DNA from: Saprospiraceae bacterium
GTDB lineage: Bacteria; Bacteroidota; Bacteroidia; Chitinophagales; Saprospiraceae
DNA: 59,040 bases
Assembly: GCA_019694255.1 (NCBI GenBank)
Contig: JAIBCI010000079.1
Location: 1-59,040 of the forward strand
Reading direction: 5' to 3'
Below the pieces are notes generated by a model. The model had not been told where the DNA came from, did not search any database, and saw only the letters and a list, made by a program, of their open reading frames with translations. The position numbers and the translations under genes are program-made. Shown here in pieces: positions 22,330 to 29,780 of this stretch (position 1 is its first letter; each line of letters starts with the position of its first letter).

Positions 22330-25300
22330 TTGATACATCAATTGAATATAATTCGACACATCGTTATATTCAGCATGGCATTGTGCGGTATGCTGGACAA
22401 TGTTACTTCACAAGATTTCTCACGAATCAGCCTGGAAATTCTGAATGAAGACAATGGTTTGCCGAATCAAAGCATCACCAGTCTTTGCATTGACCGGCAC
22501 GGCTTTCTATGGGTGGGGACCCTCAACGGACTGGCTCGCTTCGATGGTGAAAAGTCAAAAATATTCCTGCATCTGCAAAATGACTCGACAAGTATCTGCA
22601 ATGCTTTCGGTCAATTCATTATTAAGGACACCCGCAATAATCTGTGGTTGACTTATCCGCGTGCAGGGCTCAGTAGATATAATGAGGCATGCGAATGCTT
22701 TGATAATACCGCAGGCCAAGATAGTTTTATTGCAACGCAATCAAGAGGATTGGGTGCTATAAGAATTAACAGCGACCTTGATATTTTGCTAAATGGTTAT
22801 AATAAAGGACTTCGATTTTATAATCTTCGCACAAAGACCCTTTTCAGCAATAGTTTGTCTGAGCTGGCGCCAGGACTCAATCCTGCATTCAGGGAATATG
22901 CCAATTCAATCAATCACATTTGTGAAGCAAGAGATGGCCTCTTATGGTTAGCTACAAAAAGTGGCCTATTTACGTATGATCCTTTGACCCGAAAAATTGC
23001 ATCTGTCATAGAACACCTCTATAATCAAAAAGCGGATCAGCCAACTTCTTTCGGAAAAATTCTGCAGTTCGACGATGAACACATGATCATTGAAGCCAAT
23101 GATACCAATCTTGTTGTGTATGACTTATGCCTTAACAGCTATCGTATATTACATGTACCTAATCCAAACATCGGAAGCAGTGTCTTCACTGTAAACGATT
23201 TTGCAATAAAAAACGAACATGAACTCTGGATAACGAGTTATCCTAATGGCATACTGACCTATGATATCAATACACAAAAACTGCAACGATTAAAGTTCTA
23301 CAATAGCGAGCCTGAACAAGGGCTGCTTTCCACAGCAAATAAGATTTGTCCCGTCCATGAGAATTTAGTTTACATTGCTTCAGGTATTGGGTTATTGCGG
23401 GTGCGTTCTAGCAACTCCATTTTTTCTTTTGCTCCATTTGATTCCTCTTTCAGTATTATTCAGAACGATAGTTATGTTCATAGTGTACTGGATATTCCGC
23501 AAATTCATAGTACTGCACTGACCATTGCAAATCCCAGGAGAATTATTCTTGTAGACGTCCAGTCAGGCCGAAAGGAATTCATTGACGTAGACAAGGATAT
23601 CCGGGCCACACCACAATTCAGGTACAAATTAAAACTATATAAAGACAACAACAACCACTTCTGGGCACTTAGCAATTTTTCACTTTACCAGTTTGACTAT
23701 ACGCATAAGACTTTACAGCGCGTAAACCTGCATAATGAAGATTCTCTCCTGACAGCCCCTGAATATAGCTCAATGTTTTTTGACAGCGACAATAACATGT
23801 GGATTGTAACTTATAACGGGGGTGTGCATAAAGTAGATCTGAGCCGTCAGGAACTTGGCATCAGCGTCACGCGATCCGCTCTTAAAGATGCTCCTCAGAA
23901 TATTATGAGAGCATATAGCGCGGGCAACCAGAATATATGGCTGCAGACCAAAAGAAGAATATTTCTGTACAATATCCGCAACAATACATTCAGGGAAATT
24001 GCAGACAGCACAAAAAATTCATGGCATAACCAAGAGATCCAGTATTGTTGTACAGATCAAAAAAACAACCTCTATGCCATTATACCGGAGATGGGTATCA
24101 TGAAATATTTGCTGGGGGAAAACTCCGTATGCAAAGTGCAAACCATTGGAATCGAAGATGGGTTGCCTTCGAATAATATCGTAGACATGATCGTAGATCA
24201 CGAAAATTGTATTTGGTGCTCAACTTTCATCGGTATTTACAGACAGAATCCTGAAGCCGGCAGTTTTAGGAAATTTAAAAATGAAGACGGACTGCCACGC
24301 ATAACCTATCCCTGTGTATTTTACAAAAACGGTGATTCAAATATCACATTAACCATCAGAGGGCAATATTCACAGGTGAATTTTGAGAATATTCGTCAAC
24401 AGTCTGACAGACCTAAAGTCTACATTGAAAATATTAAGGTCAGACAGTCTGAAAAATACCGGTTAATTGTCAGCGACACTACTTTACATCTTTCTGCCGG
24501 TGATAATTTCATCAGCTTCGATTATGGATCCATTGATCTGCAAAACCAGCAATACAATTCATTTGCCTACAAATTAACCAACTGGGATCATGACTGGATT
24601 GTGGCCGGATCAAGAAAATTTGCAGGATATACCAACCTTGATCCCGGAGCATATACCTTCATGGTCAAAGTAGCCGGTGCTGATGGACAGTTCGGACCGC
24701 CGCTCTCGGTACACTTCACGATTGAAAAAGTATTTTACAAGAAAAACTGGTTTGTGGCCTTAGGCATTATACTGCTATTGGCTATGGCCCTGAGTATTTA
24801 CTTTTGGCGAATACGGCAAATCAGAAAGACCGAGCTCCTAAAAACAAAACACAATGCGCAATTAACGGAACTTCGTATGGAGGCGCTCAGAGCGCAAATG
24901 AACCCGCACTTTATTTTCAACAGCCTCAATTCGATCAACCGATATATTATCAAGAGCGATGCCAAAAGTTCAAGTTATTACCTTACCAAATTTGCCAAAT
25001 TGATGCGGCTTATATTGGATAACTCCAAAAGTAAAAAAGTGGTATTATCCAATGAACTTGAGGCACTCAAACTTTATATGGAAATAGAGTCTATGCGATT
25101 TGACCACAAGTTCGTCTACGAGATCAGGATTGCGGATAATGTGGATCCAAATATCCTTGAGATTCCGCCATTGATTATACAGCCTTATGTTGAAAACGCT
25201 ATATGGCACGGTTTACTACCCAAAGACTCACCAGGAAAGATCAATCTCGATATTTCGATGGAGAATGATTTTCTACGCATCGAACTCACTGATGACGGTA

Positions 25301-25503
25301 TCGGAAGAATCAAGTCTCAAGAATTCCGCAATGAACAGAACCTGACCCGAAAATCTCTTGGAATGAAATTGACCGAAGAGCGTCTCAAAATGGCAACCGA
25401 AAATATTGAGACCGCGGGCCATCAGGAGATAATCGACTTATATGATTCTTCGGGAAAACCAACCGGAACGAAAGTAATTCTCAAAATACCAGTCAATGAC
25501 TAA
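22330..25503 (+). CDS. two-component propeller sensor histidine kinase (LytS-type)
   Basis: About 1057 residues. A signal-peptide-like N-terminus precedes a periplasmic region of propeller repeats (WVGTLNGLARFDG, WLATKSGLFTYDP, WIVTYNGGVHKVD, WCSTFIGIYRQNP), a Y_Y_Y domain (YTNLDPGAYTFMVKVAG), one membrane helix (WFVALGIILLLAMALSIYF), and a His_kinase/HATPase unit. The phosphoacceptor His860 lies in AQMNPHFIFNSLNSINRY and the ATP-binding motifs are PPLIIQPYVENAIWHGL and LTDDGIGR. Such kinases in Bacteroidota sense polymers or other extracellular ligands. No ATG lies before the hydrophobic stretch, so the start is probably a TTG (22330 or 22342). The stop overlaps the response regulator start by eight bases. 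Confidence 0.93.
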   Translation: MIHQLNIIRHIVIFSMALCGMLDNVTSQDFSRISLEILNEDNGLPNQSITSLCIDRHGFLWVGTLNGLARFDGEKSKIFLHLQNDSTSICNAFGQFIIKDTRNNLWLTYPRAGLSRYNEACECFDNTAGQDSFIATQSRGLGAIRINSDLDILLNGYNKGLRFYNLRTKTLFSNSLSELAPGLNPAFREYANSINHICEARDGLLWLATKSGLFTYDPLTRKIASVIEHLYNQKADQPTSFGKILQFDDEHMIIEANDTNLVVYDLCLNSYRILHVPNPNIGSSVFTVNDFAIKNEHELWITSYPNGILTYDINTQKLQRLKFYNSEPEQGLLSTANKICPVHENLVYIASGIGLLRVRSSNSIFSFAPFDSSFSIIQNDSYVHSVLDIPQIHSTALTIANPRRIILVDVQSGRKEFIDVDKDIRATPQFRYKLKLYKDNNNHFWALSNFSLYQFDYTHKTLQRVNLHNEDSLLTAPEYSSMFFDSDNNMWIVTYNGGVHKVDLSRQELGISVTRSALKDAPQNIMRAYSAGNQNIWLQTKRRIFLYNIRNNTFREIADSTKNSWHNQEIQYCCTDQKNNLYAIIPEMGIMKYLLGENSVCKVQTIGIEDGLPSNNIVDMIVDHENCIWCSTFIGIYRQNPEAGSFRKFKNEDGLPRITYPCVFYKNGDSNITLTIRGQYSQVNFENIRQQSDRPKVYIENIKVRQSEKYRLIVSDTTLHLSAGDNFISFDYGSIDLQNQQYNSFAYKLTNWDHDWIVAGSRKFAGYTNLDPGAYTFMVKVAGADGQFGPPLSVHFTIEKVFYKKNWFVALGIILLLAMALSIYFWRIRQIRKTELLKTKHNAQLTELRMEALRAQMNPHFIFNSLNSINRYIIKSDAKSSSYYLTKFAKLMRLILDNSKSKKVVLSNELEALKLYMEIESMRFDHKFVYEIRIADNVDPNILEIPPLIIQPYVENAIWHGLLPKDSPGKINLDISMENDFLRIELTDDGIGRIKSQEFRNEQNLTRKSLGMKLTEERLKMATENIETAGHQEIIDLYDSSGKPTGTKVILKIPVND

Positions 25504-26248
25504 ATTCAAGACTGTCATCATTGATGACGAAAAAAACTGTTGCGAAGTACTCGAATGGCTTATACAGAATCATTGCCCCGAATTACACCTAACAGCAATT
25601 TGTCAATCTGCGGAAGAAGGAATAGCGGAGATTAAAAAATCAGCGCCGGACATCATCTTCCTCGATATTGAAATGCCAAAAATGAATGGTTTCGAGATGC
25701 TCGAAGCCCTGATGCCTATACAATTTGATGTAGTCTTTACGACAGCTTACGATTCCTTTGCGGTGAGGGCATTTAAATATGCTGCGCTAAACTACCTTCT
25801 CAAGCCAATTGATGCAGATGATCTCAGGGAGACCGTAGATCGCCTTGTCCGTAAAAAAAATGTACCGGAAAAGGAACAGATGGAAGTGCTCTTCAAGCAT
25901 CTAATTAATTCGAAGCCCACCATTGACCGGATTGCGTTATCTACCGATGATGGTCTCATTTTTGTCCATGTCAAGGATATTGTGTATTGTAAGGCCGACA
26001 GCAATTACACCTTTGTGTATATGGAAGACGGACGAAAAATCCTGGTTGCCCGCACTCTCAAGGATATCGACGAGACCCTTTCAGGAAAGGATTTTTTCAG
26101 AGTACATAATTCCTATCTGGTCAATGTCAATCGGATTAGCCGATTTGTAAGAGGCGACGGTGGTTATATTGTAATGCCGGACCAGACGGAGATTACGGTC
26201 TCCAGAAGCAAGAGAGATGAGTTTTTCCAGCTTTTTGCCAAATTCTGA
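25496..26248 (+). CDS. LytTR family response regulator
   Basis: 250 residues. A receiver domain with acidic pocket Asp10/Asp11, phosphoacceptor Asp57 (IIFLDIEMPKMNGFEML) and the conserved lysine in YLLKPID, then a LytTR DNA-binding domain (VYCKADSNYTFVYMEDGRK, FFRVHNSYLVNVNRISRF). It overlaps the kinase gene by eight bases, so the two are co-translated and form a cognate pair. Targets are unknown; the 240 bases before the GRAS-domain gene just downstream are a plausible place to look for LytTR-type direct repeats, though I see none clearly. Confidence 0.95.
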   Translation: MTKFKTVIIDDEKNCCEVLEWLIQNHCPELHLTAICQSAEEGIAEIKKSAPDIIFLDIEMPKMNGFEMLEALMPIQFDVVFTTAYDSFAVRAFKYAALNYLLKPIDADDLRETVDRLVRKKNVPEKEQMEVLFKHLINSKPTIDRIALSTDDGLIFVHVKDIVYCKADSNYTFVYMEDGRKILVARTLKDIDETLSGKDFFRVHNSYLVNVNRISRFVRGDGGYIVMPDQTEITVSRSKRDEFFQLFAKF

Positions 26249-26488
26249 CACCAACCACTCAGAAAAACAGCTATCCAATAAGAATTTACGCTAGTCACGC
26301 AGTCCTTTGACTGTGTTGTCTCCTGCGGTATCACTTTTGCATTATGATTCATAATCAAGGGTTCATGGAAGGCATTCCAATTACAGACACAGACTTCTGC
26401 CTGACCAAGGCATTCAAGATTGTTATTTCTCCCAAGTATCTTTTTGCTCATTAACCACAAAAAACGAATTTACTAAATTATCAAACAT

Positions 26489-27556
26489 ATGATCACAGTA
26501 CAAAGCCGCCTCGAAGAAATCAGCCAAATTCTGAAACAGCAGGATCTCAAGGCGGACACCAATATACAGGCACTCACTCAACTTTATCAGGCGTGTCGCT
26601 CCAATGCCGTGAGCAATTCGGAGGATCTCCTTTCTTCTTTAATCCTTAAAGCGCTGATCAGAAGAACACACGCTGAAGCGATAAGCGGAAACATTTACGA
26701 CAATACTACGGACACTCCCCAGATTGAGTTATTTAATATTCTCATTGAAAAATTTCCATTCGTAAAGTTTAGTCAGCAGTTGGTGAATGATGCCATCATC
26801 TCATTGCTGAGTCAGTCAGAAACTGCAACCATCCTTGATATTGGTATTGGTCAGGGCACTCAAATTCTGGGCATCTTATCCAGACTACCACGTGACAGTC
26901 GTCTGCGAAGATTAATCATTATCGGAGTTGAACCTTTTCCGGAAGCATTGTCCATCTGCACCCGCCGCATCGAGGAGATTTCTGCGCACAGCAATATTGA
27001 TATTCAATTCTACCCGATTGAAGCGTTTATTGAAAAACTCGATTTTGAATTTGTAAGAAACCTATGTCAAGGGAATCTGATCGTCAATGCTTCGCTGGCC
27101 CTACATCACATTCAGACTGACATCCAACGCGTCAAAGTTCTTCAAGCGGTCAAAAATCTAAGGCCTGTTGGCCTGTATCTGATCGAACCCAATGTCGATC
27201 ACATGGATCCTGATTTGTCCACGCGCGTACGCAATAGTTTTCATCATTTTCATGCGCTGTTTCAAGTCATCGACAGACTTGAAATCAAAGATCAGGACAA
27301 AAATTCACTCAAGCTGTTTTTTGGCAGAGAGATTGAAGACATTCTCGGCAAACAGGAGGCTGATCGATATGAACGCCACGACCTGGCTACCCGCTGGATT
27401 TCACATCTAGAACATTGCGGCTTTAAAAATAAGAGTGCGATGTTAGATCTTCCTGTTCGCAATAGCTACGGTGTAGAAATGAATTGCACCAACGAAGGAT
27501 TTTTTGGATTCACCTATGATACAGAAACTGTATTGGCTGTCATTTATGCATCGTAA
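26489..27556 (+). CDS. bacterial GRAS-domain protein, predicted small-molecule methyltransferase
   Basis: 355 residues covering the whole GRAS domain known from plant transcription regulators. In order: a leucine-rich helical start; LFNILIEKFPFVKFSQQ (82-98), like the plant segment before VHIID; ATILDIGIGQGTQ (113-125) at the VHIID position; LIVNASLALHHI (197-208), like plant NCVLQLH; LYLIEPN (229-235), like VVEQE; VRNSFHHFHALFQVIDRL (247-264); FFGREIEDIL (277-286), the PFYRE region; YERHDLATRWISHLEHCGF (294-312), the SAW region. DIGIGQGTQ is a good class I methyltransferase motif I, so SAM binding is likely retained. Bacterial GRAS proteins have been predicted to be small-molecule methylases. 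The gene abuts a HisC-like aminotransferase, which suggests a shared amino-containing substrate. Confidence 0.9.
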   Translation: MITVQSRLEEISQILKQQDLKADTNIQALTQLYQACRSNAVSNSEDLLSSLILKALIRRTHAEAISGNIYDNTTDTPQIELFNILIEKFPFVKFSQQLVNDAIISLLSQSETATILDIGIGQGTQILGILSRLPRDSRLRRLIIIGVEPFPEALSICTRRIEEISAHSNIDIQFYPIEAFIEKLDFEFVRNLCQGNLIVNASLALHHIQTDIQRVKVLQAVKNLRPVGLYLIEPNVDHMDPDLSTRVRNSFHHFHALFQVIDRLEIKDQDKNSLKLFFGREIEDILGKQEADRYERHDLATRWISHLEHCGFKNKSAMLDLPVRNSYGVEMNCTNEGFFGFTYDTETVLAVIYAS

Positions 27557-27569
27557 AAATTCAATCCGT

Positions 27570-28703
27570 ATGATCAATCTAATGTTTAATGATTATCTGC
27601 TCAAGACCCAGGCCCGGATCAAGTCTATCAAACAGTCTTTTAAATTGCAGCTGGACAAAAATGAACAAACGCAGGATCTCGAAATGAATTTTAAAAAAGA
27701 AGTGATCGATGCCTTGGCGCAAAGCGCATGGAACCGCTATCCTGATCATGATTATGAGGATATTGAACAAAATATTGCCAGCTACTGCGGACTTCAGCCC
27801 GATAACATTCTTTTGTGTCCTGGTTCAGCAAGCATCATTACCACCCTTTTGAATTATTTTGCCATTAATCACAAGGACATTCATATTACTCAGCCAACCT
27901 ATTCCCTTTTCGACTATCACTGCAAGACTTATAATATTTCTTATACGCCCTGGCTTCTGTCTGAAGATCTCGAATATGACTATGAGCATCTTCCACGCCT
28001 GAAAGAAAACTCAGTATTGATCATCACCTCTCCAAATAATCCTGTAGGTAACTGCTTTGAGGAGTCCTACCTCAGGGATATCCTGGCCCGCAATCCGCAA
28101 TCGCTGATCATCGTTGACGGGGTGTATACCGAATTCTGCCACTATGACCTGACCCCTCTCGTTCGTGAATATGCCAATCTGATCCTGTTGCGCTCTTTTT
28201 CCAAAGCATTCCCCGTTGCAGGTCTTCGGCTTGGCTATCTTTGTGCATCTGAAAAATTGATACCCATTCTTCGCAAGTTGTTCCTTCAATTCTCCATCAG
28301 CGAATTTTCACTTTTATTTGCCCGCAAATTATTGTTTACAAAAAAATTCATGCAGCATTCCATGTGCAGGATAGCGGAACTGATCGGAGAAAGGGAATTT
28401 CTGAAACGTGAAATAACCAATAAATTTGACCGGTCCCAGGTGCAGGTATTTCCGTCAGGTGGAAACTTTGTGCTGATTAGGATTCATAATAGCCGTCTTC
28501 ATGAAAATGTACTAAAACAACTCCAGCAAGACGGAATTAAAATCCTGAATACTTCTGATTTTCCCTTGCTCTATAATACGATACGGGTTTCTATTGGCAC
28601 TCGTGGCGAAAATCAGCAATTCCTGTCAAGTCTATGGGCGGGTATTCATCGGCAGGACGGACTTAATATTCCAGCAGGACTTTTTACAATTCATTCAAAC
28701 TAA
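27570..28703 (+). CDS. HisC-like PLP-dependent aminotransferase (class I/II)
   Basis: About 377 residues. Fold type I aminotransferase of the histidinol-phosphate/threonine-phosphate group: LDKNEQTQDL near the N-terminus resembles the HisC opening LDxNE; CPGSASIITTLL binds the cofactor phosphate; SPNNPVGN and DGVYTEF contain the PLP-contacting residues; the Schiff-base lysine is Lys212 in RSFSKAFPVAGLRLGY; IRVSIGTRGEN supplies the substrate-carboxylate arginine. No other histidine gene is near, so a dedicated role with the GRAS methyltransferase is more likely than histidine biosynthesis. Starts at 27546 (11-base overlap), 27570 or 27582 are possible; I list 27570. Confidence 0.88.
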   Translation: MINLMFNDYLLKTQARIKSIKQSFKLQLDKNEQTQDLEMNFKKEVIDALAQSAWNRYPDHDYEDIEQNIASYCGLQPDNILLCPGSASIITTLLNYFAINHKDIHITQPTYSLFDYHCKTYNISYTPWLLSEDLEYDYEHLPRLKENSVLIITSPNNPVGNCFEESYLRDILARNPQSLIIVDGVYTEFCHYDLTPLVREYANLILLRSFSKAFPVAGLRLGYLCASEKLIPILRKLFLQFSISEFSLLFARKLLFTKKFMQHSMCRIAELIGEREFLKREITNKFDRSQVQVFPSGGNFVLIRIHNSRLHENVLKQLQQDGIKILNTSDFPLLYNTIRVSIGTRGENQQFLSSLWAGIHRQDGLNIPAGLFTIHSN

Positions 28704-28742: not shown

Positions 28743-29780
28743 ATGTTAAAAAATCTTAACTTAATTACATTATTTTTGATCGCTCATCTCAGCATTGGGC
28801 AGAATCTCATATTTGATGATTTTAACTATCCCGTGAGAGACAGTCTGGAAGGTTACAGCAACTGGTTTAGAGATGGCCTGAATCTTCAATACAATATTAA
28901 GGTTAAATCTCCCGGATTAGAATATACTGATTACTCCGGCTCCGGCAAAGGCAATGCTGTGCACATCAGTAACAATGGACAAGGTGACATTGTGGGTCGG
29001 TCTTTCCCGTCACAAATCGATAGTGGTTCGCTCTACATGTCTTTTATGATTCAATTGGATAGCATGACCAATGCCACCACTTCCGGTGGCTGTATTTCGT
29101 TTAATCCTTCTGGCGGAACCTATCTTAATACTATATTACAAATTAAGCGCCAAACCAATAATACATTTGATTTTGGCATTGTCAAGTCTAATGGAGCTGT
29201 GTTTCTTAATTCAAGTTTTGAACTTCATCACACCTACCTGATTGTACTCAAATATACATTCATCAAAGGAGATAATAATGATGAATCCAGCTTATATGTA
29301 TTTCAAAATGGTATTCCGGATCAAGAACCGTCGATGCCCGATCTTGTAAATACTTTTGGTCCTGATTTTACAGCCCAGAGCTTCGTCTACCTCATCAACA
29401 ATTATGCGCAAACCGGTCTGACAGGAATTGATCTTACTATCGACGGATTGCGGGTAGGCACCAGCTGGGATTCCAGTGTCAAAGCTATTGCAACCTCCGT
29501 ACAAGAGCCAACATCCTCATCCATAAACTCCATTTCGGTCAATCCGAATCCTGTAAGAGACATTGCGCAAATTGAATATCATATTCAGCAACAGGGGGAT
29601 GTATCCATTCAGATTATCAACGCGTCAGGCGATGTGATATCCGAAACACGACGTGGATCTGAAGCTGCCGGCAAACACACTTTTATTTTGACTCCAATCA
29701 ATTACACACCGGGGTTATACTTCTGCAAGATCACTAGCGAAACCGAGAAATACATTCAAAGATTTATTCTGGTAAATTAA
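28743..29780 (+). CDS. secreted protein with T9SS type A sorting domain
   Basis: 345 residues. A signal peptide (LITLFLIAHLSIGQ, cleavage near residue 20) leads into a beta-rich domain of about 220 residues (FDDFNYPVRDSLEGYSNWF near the start) that looks like a concanavalin/laminin-G type sandwich. The last 80 residues are a T9SS sorting domain: SVNPNPVRD, VSIQIINASGDVI, GLYFCKI, ending FILVN. It is therefore exported to the cell surface or medium. It starts 39 bases after the aminotransferase gene and could share its transcript. Function unknown. Confidence 0.86.
   Translation: MLKNLNLITLFLIAHLSIGQNLIFDDFNYPVRDSLEGYSNWFRDGLNLQYNIKVKSPGLEYTDYSGSGKGNAVHISNNGQGDIVGRSFPSQIDSGSLYMSFMIQLDSMTNATTSGGCISFNPSGGTYLNTILQIKRQTNNTFDFGIVKSNGAVFLNSSFELHHTYLIVLKYTFIKGDNNDESSLYVFQNGIPDQEPSMPDLVNTFGPDFTAQSFVYLINNYAQTGLTGIDLTIDGLRVGTSWDSSVKAIATSVQEPTSSSINSISVNPNPVRDIAQIEYHIQQQGDVSIQIINASGDVISETRRGSEAAGKHTFILTPINYTPGLYFCKITSETEKYIQRFILVN

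Follow-up and report, generated by a model that had tools for sequence, protein, structure and literature searches.

The locus and the question

What does a protein of the GRAS family, whose plant members steer the gibberellin response, root patterning and symbiosis, do in a bacterium, and why should its gene be followed directly by one for an aminotransferase? The question is posed by a stretch of 59,040 bases (the window in what follows, which is one whole contig) from the 3.56 Mb, 99.04% complete genome of a Saprospiraceae bacterium. The answer proposed here has two parts of different standing. The gene pair is real and is conserved in many Bacteroidota; beyond that, we would give roughly an even chance to the reading that the GRAS protein is an active methyltransferase dependent on S-adenosylmethionine (SAM), acting on a small 2-oxo acid or close amino-acid derivative in concert with the HisC-family transaminase, most likely by C-methylation. 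The features on which the argument turns are as follows (loci and genomes carry our own L and G numbers where these are needed).

26489 to 27556, forward strand: GRAS-domain protein of 355 aa, a predicted class I SAM-dependent small-molecule methyltransferase (PF03514, predicted structure, Foldseek)
26822 to 26863, forward strand: beta-1 strand and motif I (TATILDIGIGQGTQ), GRAS codons 112-125, with G119, G121 and G123 invariant in 61 of 61 homologs
26930 to 26932, forward strand: codon of E148 of GRAS, the acidic residue at the end of beta-2
27086 to 27109, forward strand: NASLALHH after beta-4, GRAS codons 200-207 (from the alignment, its conservation being inflated by the search pattern)
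27570 to 28703, forward strand: HisC-family aminotransferase dependent on pyridoxal phosphate (PLP), with its likely start at the ATG at 27570 (the mechanical open reading frame begins at 27504)

A GRAS protein with the residues of a methyltransferase

The product of 26489-27556 is a true GRAS protein. Its match to the Pfam model PF03514 is far above threshold (residues 8-316, E 3.5e-36, 125.3 bits against a cut-off of 27) and covers positions 5-328 of the 374 in the profile, ending at 328; no second GRAS protein was found in the source genome, and an identical search was positive in none of 14 control genomes. When the PDB sequences were searched with phmmer, all 12 proteins below E 1e-6 were plant GRAS, the next one having an E value of 0.44. 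An AlphaFold model was computed from an alignment (A2) of 61 GRAS proteins comprising the window protein, others from bacteria and one from an archaeon (L001-L004 were left out as duplicates, and L016, L055, L062, L067 and L069 as short or weak); it has a mean predicted local distance difference test score (pLDDT) of 93.0 and a predicted template modelling score (pTM) of 0.91. In a Foldseek comparison of this model with the PDB, plant GRAS domains fill ranks 1-12, with template modelling (TM) scores of 0.72-0.83 by query length.

The original prediction, made from the DNA letters alone, had read the full run of plant GRAS blocks in this protein, and whereas the GRAS identity stands, the blocks themselves need correcting. 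The stretch FFGREIEDIL, which had been called PFYRE-like, belongs to a run ending in RHDLATRW that falls within the PFYRE/SAW region of the plant papers. The SAW pairs are defined as R(x)4E, W(x)7G and W(x)10W, the terminal W(x)10W pair being typical of plant GRAS; in the window sequence R293 has Asp at position 298, where the first pair calls for Glu, W303(x)7G311 is present, and no W(x)10W pair was found, there being no Trp after W303 in the whole 355-aa sequence. As a separate observation, the Pfam GRAS model gives the protein of Rhodothermales (L002/L061) 237.7 bits, compared with 124.8 for that of the window, and the Rhodothermales protein may be nearer to the plant ones.

Motif I, by contrast, had been claimed to be intact, and so it is: it reads DIGIGQG, its three glycines do not vary in A2, and position 148 at the end of beta-2 is acidic throughout (Glu in 53 proteins, Asp in 8), E148 being the residue expected to hold the ribose of SAM. 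NASLALHH is nearly invariant in the same alignment, but since it was one of the two patterns used in the genome scan and 57 of the 61 rows match it, part of this conservation reflects the way the proteins were selected; only 15 of the 61 match the other pattern, that of motif I. Two GRAS proteins found without either pattern, L161 (by a hidden Markov model, HMM) and L206 (by tblastn, on a Skermanella plasmid), keep the glycines, the acidic residue and LHH, with Q125 replaced by Arg in the latter. Plant GRAS regulators tend to lose the motif I glycines and the beta-2 acid, and in the alignment with rice SCL7 the counterparts of the acidic residue and of H206 are replaced. At the level of sequence and modelled fold, then, the presence of a SAM pocket in the window protein holds.

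Conservation of the gene pair

Only 13 bp separate the GRAS stop codon from the aminotransferase ATG at 27570. A pattern-based scan of 84,980 species genomes, made with a four-sequence alignment, yielded 65 GRAS loci, and an aminotransferase is present in 35 of them (counting L054, where it lies 2.5 kb off, L009, where it lies 1.7 kb off with two genes between, L032, where it is a fragment, and L034, where it is cut by the contig end). Within the clade of the GRAS tree to which the window belongs (L005-L035, L016 not being in the tree) it stands behind GRAS on the same strand in 28 of 31 loci; at L017, which lacks it, the contig ends about 200 bases past GRAS. An HMM survey of the source organism's family found GRAS in 14 of 398 genomes, and the aminotransferase follows on the same strand in every one; 12 of the 13 loci besides the window were already in the pattern scan, L161 being new. 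The adjacency that the original prediction had looked for in relatives is therefore well borne out.

The GRAS gene itself is patchily distributed, occurring in 4 of 395 genomes of the phylum and 2 of 9 of the genus (one of these nine being 66% complete), and none was found in a phage collection. On the GRAS tree the label 'aminotransferase adjacent' requires 6 changes, compared with a mean of 20.3 when labels are shuffled. At L032 (Breznakibacter) the aminotransferase copy beside GRAS stops after 165 codons, and two Marinilabiliaceae genomes (G422 and G417, of L027) have, elsewhere in the genome, pieces that match the C-terminal half of hisC.

The partner aminotransferase

That the second gene encodes a HisC-like PLP enzyme with Lys212, as originally noted, was confirmed: its match to Aminotran_1_2 has an E value of 7.6e-42, and the PLP lysine, residue 234 of the mechanical open reading frame, becomes Lys212 when counted from the ATG at 27570. 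The resemblance raises the possibility that this is simply the organism's histidinol-phosphate aminotransferase, HisC, and that its adjacency to GRAS has no functional meaning. It is indeed the best match in the genome to the hisC model TIGR01141, with 227.5 bits where the next best protein has 112.3; however, the cut-off of that model is 276.55, and in this 99% complete genome neither a hisC match over cut-off nor any match to histidinol dehydrogenase (HisD, PF00815) was found, these being the two his genes searched for. A panel of 40 genomes (the source genome and those of 39 of the 65 loci, the completeness figure applying to the source genome only) shows the same pattern more widely, over-cut-off HisC being present in 21 of the 23 genomes that have histidinol dehydrogenase and in 1 of the 17 that lack it; the GRAS-linked aminotransferase is retained in 16 of the latter. 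In the Polyangia genome the sole over-cut-off HisC protein is the GRAS-linked gene itself, and in the Rhodothermales genome it is one of two; excluding these, the first count becomes 20 of 23.

In a tree of 52 aminotransferases (from which rows shorter than 300 aa and L094, L090, L084 and L071, as duplicates or weak, were left out) the 31 partners from Bacteroidota group together in a single starred clade, and the nine canonical HisC proteins in another (over-cut-off L083 and L086 fall outside the latter and were excluded from it). The partners from Polyangia and Rhodothermales form a separate starred pair, and it follows that the linkage with GRAS recurs, at least two aminotransferase lineages being involved.

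Residues in the pocket have diverged as well. Where all nine canonical HisC proteins have Asp, Met, Tyr, Arg and Ala, the window protein has A109, L135, F263, L348 and C140 respectively; one of the two phosphate-binding Arg residues is Leu in the 27 Bacteroidota rows that have a letter there (4 are gapped), R361 is kept in 31 of 31 partners, and the PLP residues are kept in 34 of 34. According to PMC4703992, the pocket of the Mycobacterium tuberculosis histidinol-phosphate aminotransferase (HspAT) contains Asn103, Met129 and Tyr261, with two Arg and Asn176 binding phosphate, and that of its aromatic aminotransferase (ArAT) contains Val86, Phe110, Leu112 and Phe246. When positions are mapped between these enzymes (the mapping is our own, from sequence alignment), the partner resembles the aromatic type at three of four places, A109, L135 and F263 lying near Val86, Leu112 and Phe246 of ArAT, and this suggests a pocket for a hydrophobic or aromatic substrate. 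Taking the sub-threshold score, the missing HisD match, the separate clade and the changed substrate residues together, a role for the partner in histidine biosynthesis was rejected, and the idea that it is the organism's HisC, standing beside GRAS by accident, is nearly refuted.

Other 2-oxo-acid enzymes beside GRAS genes

Beyond the range of the aminotransferase, GRAS genes have other neighbours. In all six actinobacterial loci (L052, L053, L055, L057, L058 and L060) genes for the E1alpha and E2 components of a 2-oxo-acid dehydrogenase complex lie near GRAS. In three of these loci GRAS follows E2 on the same strand at a distance of about 50-200 bases; in the other three the cluster is on the opposite strand, within 6 kb. 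In one Paenibacillus (L048) the next gene after GRAS, on the same strand, encodes a D-2-hydroxyacid dehydrogenase. Since 2-oxo acids are what each of the three kinds of neighbour (aminotransferase, keto-acid dehydrogenase, 2-hydroxyacid dehydrogenase) works on, these compounds form the common theme.

Some further neighbours may be recorded. The GRAS proteins of Streptomyces, Lentzea, Saccharopolyspora and Nocardia (L052, L053, L057, L058 and L060) are nearly identical, with end branches of 0.004-0.06, which points to recent transfer. Off the theme are, among others, neighbours in Runella, such as phosphotriesterase genes and genes that we have labelled fatty-acid oxidation-like. In Vampirovibrionales and an uncultured cyanobacterium (L050, L051 and L063) GRAS converges with genes of one cluster, a member of which in L063 has the glutamate synthase domain PF01645. 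Globin genes lie near GRAS in a metagenome-assembled genome of Chitinophagales (L010, 9287-9691) and in Paenibacillus (L049, 8176-8559), both recognised by Pfam, and in L068 (8018-8401), recognised by similarity.

Which kind of methyltransferase?

On the reading preferred here, the HisC-family aminotransferase would supply a 2-oxo acid from an amino acid, or turn the methylated 2-oxo acid back into an amino acid, and the GRAS protein, as a predicted enzyme, would methylate the carbon next to the keto group, in the manner of MppJ, SgvM and MrsA, to give a beta-methyl 2-oxo or amino acid. These three enzymes act on 2-oxo acids, and in SgvM a zinc held by H244 and H296 is thought to help enolise the substrate (PMC10502145). 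They are also the first non-GRAS neighbours of the model in the Foldseek list (MppJ from rank 13, MrsA at rank 25 and SgvM at rank 30). Among NCBIfam models, that of 2-ketoarginine methyltransferase matches the GRAS protein best, though far below its cut-off (E 0.0063). In profile comparison, GRAS matches a set of keto-acid C-methyltransferases (A4, consisting of 19 relatives from Streptomyces genomes, the first row being an MppJ relative) with a probability of 96.0 and E 3.9e-9, and H206 falls opposite the first metal-binding His of the alpha-keto-acid C-methyltransferases. Comparisons with other sets, which are of unequal depth (19, 9, 2, 5 and 1 sequences in all), gave 3.0% for an O-methyltransferase-like set (A6, 2 sequences), 58.8% for A7 (5 sequences) and 73.8% for L146 alone (1 sequence, the weakest aligned member of the keto-acid set). 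Outright membership of the MppJ/SgvM/MrsA family was considered and rejected, the score against TIGR04543 being 15.6 bits where the cut-off is 425; the control profile comparisons weaken it further.

There are, however, a good many points that weigh against the preferred reading, and some against C-methylation in particular. As regards the protein, generic small class I methyltransferases (A5, 9 sequences) score higher in profile comparison than the keto-acid set, with a probability of 97.8 and E 6.5e-13. The margin in Foldseek is small, with BelI at rank 20, YecO at 26 and Coq5 at 34, and the numerous MppJ entries are forms of a single protein. The 2-ketoarginine model also gives weak matches to other methyltransferases, in 98 of the 148 Bacteroidota genomes, and the second metal-binding His of MppJ and SgvM faces no His in GRAS, D262 lying opposite in a gapped part of the alignment. 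As regards the partner, Y133 is HspAT-like and not ArAT-like. As regards the neighbourhood, E2 is 86-92% identical among the six actinobacterial loci, which would make them the product of one or two events; the D-2-hydroxyacid dehydrogenase is absent from the remaining fetched loci, including three other Paenibacillus (so that it occurs in one of four); the clade loci L024 and L027 have downstream sequence without an aminotransferase behind GRAS; and within the 65-locus scan there is none at the GRAS loci of Runella, Paenibacillus, Actinobacteria, cyanobacteria or Methanoperedens.

The class I fold serves many different chemistries, and motifs resembling LHH are common behind its beta-4 strand. 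Given that generic methyltransferases align better than the keto-acid set, the sequence supports membership of the superfamily only, and the C-methylation reading, which we infer, rests on the gene neighbours and on the small Foldseek margin of a predicted structure. It might also be asked whether GRAS is an O- or N-methyltransferase of some amino-acid-derived compound, the aminotransferase belonging to the same pathway but sharing no keto-acid substrate with it. The superior score of the generic class I enzymes speaks for this, as do the variety of class I chemistries and the commonness of LHH-like motifs, whereas the three kinds of 2-oxo-acid enzyme found beside GRAS and the order of the Foldseek list favour a keto acid, and we regard O- or N-methylation as somewhat unlikely. 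The original proposal, that the two enzymes act in sequence on one amino-acid-derived molecule, is strengthened by the pocket residues of the transaminase and by the 2-oxo-acid enzymes beside GRAS in other phyla, with catalysis by the GRAS protein predicted from its residues and fold.

A bolder extension is that 2-oxo-acid methylation was the ancestral chemistry of the whole GRAS family, its various partners supplying or consuming these acids, and that the plant regulators descend from a keto-acid methyltransferase. This we consider quite unlikely; if true, plant GRAS regulators may keep a pocket for such a ligand.

The upstream two-component system and signalling neighbours

Upstream of GRAS, on the same strand, lie genes for a histidine kinase and a LytTR regulator, and a further gene begins 39 bp behind the aminotransferase stop codon:

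22330 to 25503, forward strand: histidine kinase with Reg_prop, Y_Y_Y and His_kinase domains (Pfam)
25496 to 26248, forward strand: LytTR response regulator (Pfam, and identity to regulators at other GRAS loci)
26255 to 26288, forward strand: operator-like tandem direct repeat with a period of 20 bp, in the gap that separates the regulator gene from GRAS (differing from the consensus pair by 5 mismatches)
28743 to 29780, forward strand: secreted protein with a type IX secretion sorting tail (Pfam)

It had been suggested that this two-component system may control the pair, and here the outcome is divided. Compared with the regulators that directly precede GRAS elsewhere, that of the window shows 69% identity in L007, 65% in L031, 64% in L035 and, over the 42 residues present, 79% in L005, GRAS identity being only 44-47%; of seven other window proteins none was found in the 13 GRAS loci searched (L163 repeats L005). 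All five loci have the tandem repeat with its 20 bp period in the gap between regulator and GRAS, with 1-5 mismatches to a consensus pair derived from the same five places where it was scored, the window repeat being the weakest of the five; elsewhere, on the two strands of a further 3.0 Mb of fetched sequence, pairs with no more than 5 mismatches turn up 4 times. Gene order and repeat thus argue for control, and the GRAS and aminotransferase genes would probably form one transcription unit switched on by the LytTR system directly upstream. On the other side, a congener with no GRAS match (G797) keeps kinase (33%), regulator (65%) and repeat alike, and behind the repeat come one secreted protein and a 49% homolog of the protein secreted from 28743 in the window, from which it follows that the system has targets of its own; and it was not seen at GRAS loci beyond the five. 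In L007, L005, L035 and L173 the gap between the regulator and the next gene also contains an open frame, roughly 40 codons long, which begins with a stretch rich in Lys and Arg and probably encodes a single membrane helix (YDLFFL or YDFFFL); it was read by eye from the sequences and is not evident in the window.

Signalling genes near GRAS raise the further possibility that the protein is, like its plant kin, a SAM- or ligand-binding regulator, with the product of the aminotransferase as its ligand and neither protein methylating anything. Two-component genes lie within 4.5 kb of GRAS in 13 of 31 clade loci. Seven loci, several of them from Bacteroidales (L018, L023, L027, L030, L032, L034 and L036), have small proteins of some 130 aa beside GRAS, directly before it in six and behind it in L036. 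At L018 and L023 such proteins also follow the aminotransferase, and at L027, where there is no aminotransferase, they flank GRAS on either side. Two of these proteins were tested against Pfam and gave no match, but a structural model matches SpoIIAA/RsbV/STAS folds. Kinase or regulator genes are also near GRAS in Paenibacillus, in Methanoperedens and on the Skermanella plasmid (pSR-3 of Skermanella rosea, L206, where the neighbours of GRAS are a PAS domain protein and a response regulator). Against such a role stands the retention of the motif I glycines and the beta-2 acid in every one of the 61 bacterial and archaeal proteins, the acid and H206 being replaced in rice SCL7. The two-component count, moreover, compares with 6 of 31 in the control (p 0.049, the two sides having used slightly different lists of open reading frames), which gives no more than weak support to a general enrichment of such genes around GRAS. 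A LytTR regulator lies no more than 6.5 kb from GRAS in 11 of 45 Bacteroidota loci, as against 1 of 31 control loci (p 0.011). This is a rough figure: GRAS loci had supplied four of the five query regulators (L008, L022, L024 and L025 find themselves), the flanks total 450 and 323 kb respectively, and the denominator includes loci whose flanks are short. All told, a purely regulatory role for the bacterial protein seems distinctly improbable.

Comparison with known systems

We know of no report on the substrate of a bacterial GRAS methylase. A fixed aminotransferase partner, together with recurrent 2-oxo-acid enzymes, narrows the substrate of the ancestral methylase to a short and testable list. 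The record of the Skermanella plasmid already labels such a gene 'GRAS family protein', and a literature search joining bacterial GRAS with aminotransferase did not find the pairing, the 2012 original discussed below being beyond its reach.

Plant GRAS proteins (SCL3, SCL7, RGA and SCR/SHR) are the nearest relatives of known structure and share the fold of the whole domain; the window protein differs from them in keeping the motif I glycines and the beta-2 acid, in having no W(x)10W pair, and in being compact, without their long N-terminal extension. MppJ, SgvM and MrsA are the nearest folds outside the family, their first metal-binding His lying opposite H206 of GRAS in the profile alignment, but they belong to a different family, with a TM score of about 0.4 and a second metal-binding His to which no His of GRAS aligns. 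The partner aminotransferase resembles the subfamily of HisC and M. tuberculosis ArAT in its PLP lysine, in Arg361 (R335 in Escherichia coli) and in its overall HisC-type sequence, and differs from the nine canonical HisC proteins in the LDKNEQ lid as well as at the five pocket positions given above. Close, too, are the bacterial GRAS proteins of Zhang, Iyer and Aravind (2012), who, as far as the citing passages in PMC6232258 and PMC4279901 convey, had already published both that GRAS proteins occur in bacteria and that the family descends from a methylase. The Pfam family is the same, as is the predicted reading as a Rossmann-type methylase; what the window GRAS adds to that account, as it is represented there, is a constant aminotransferase partner, other neighbours that are 2-oxo-acid enzymes, and a LytTR system with an operator-like repeat.

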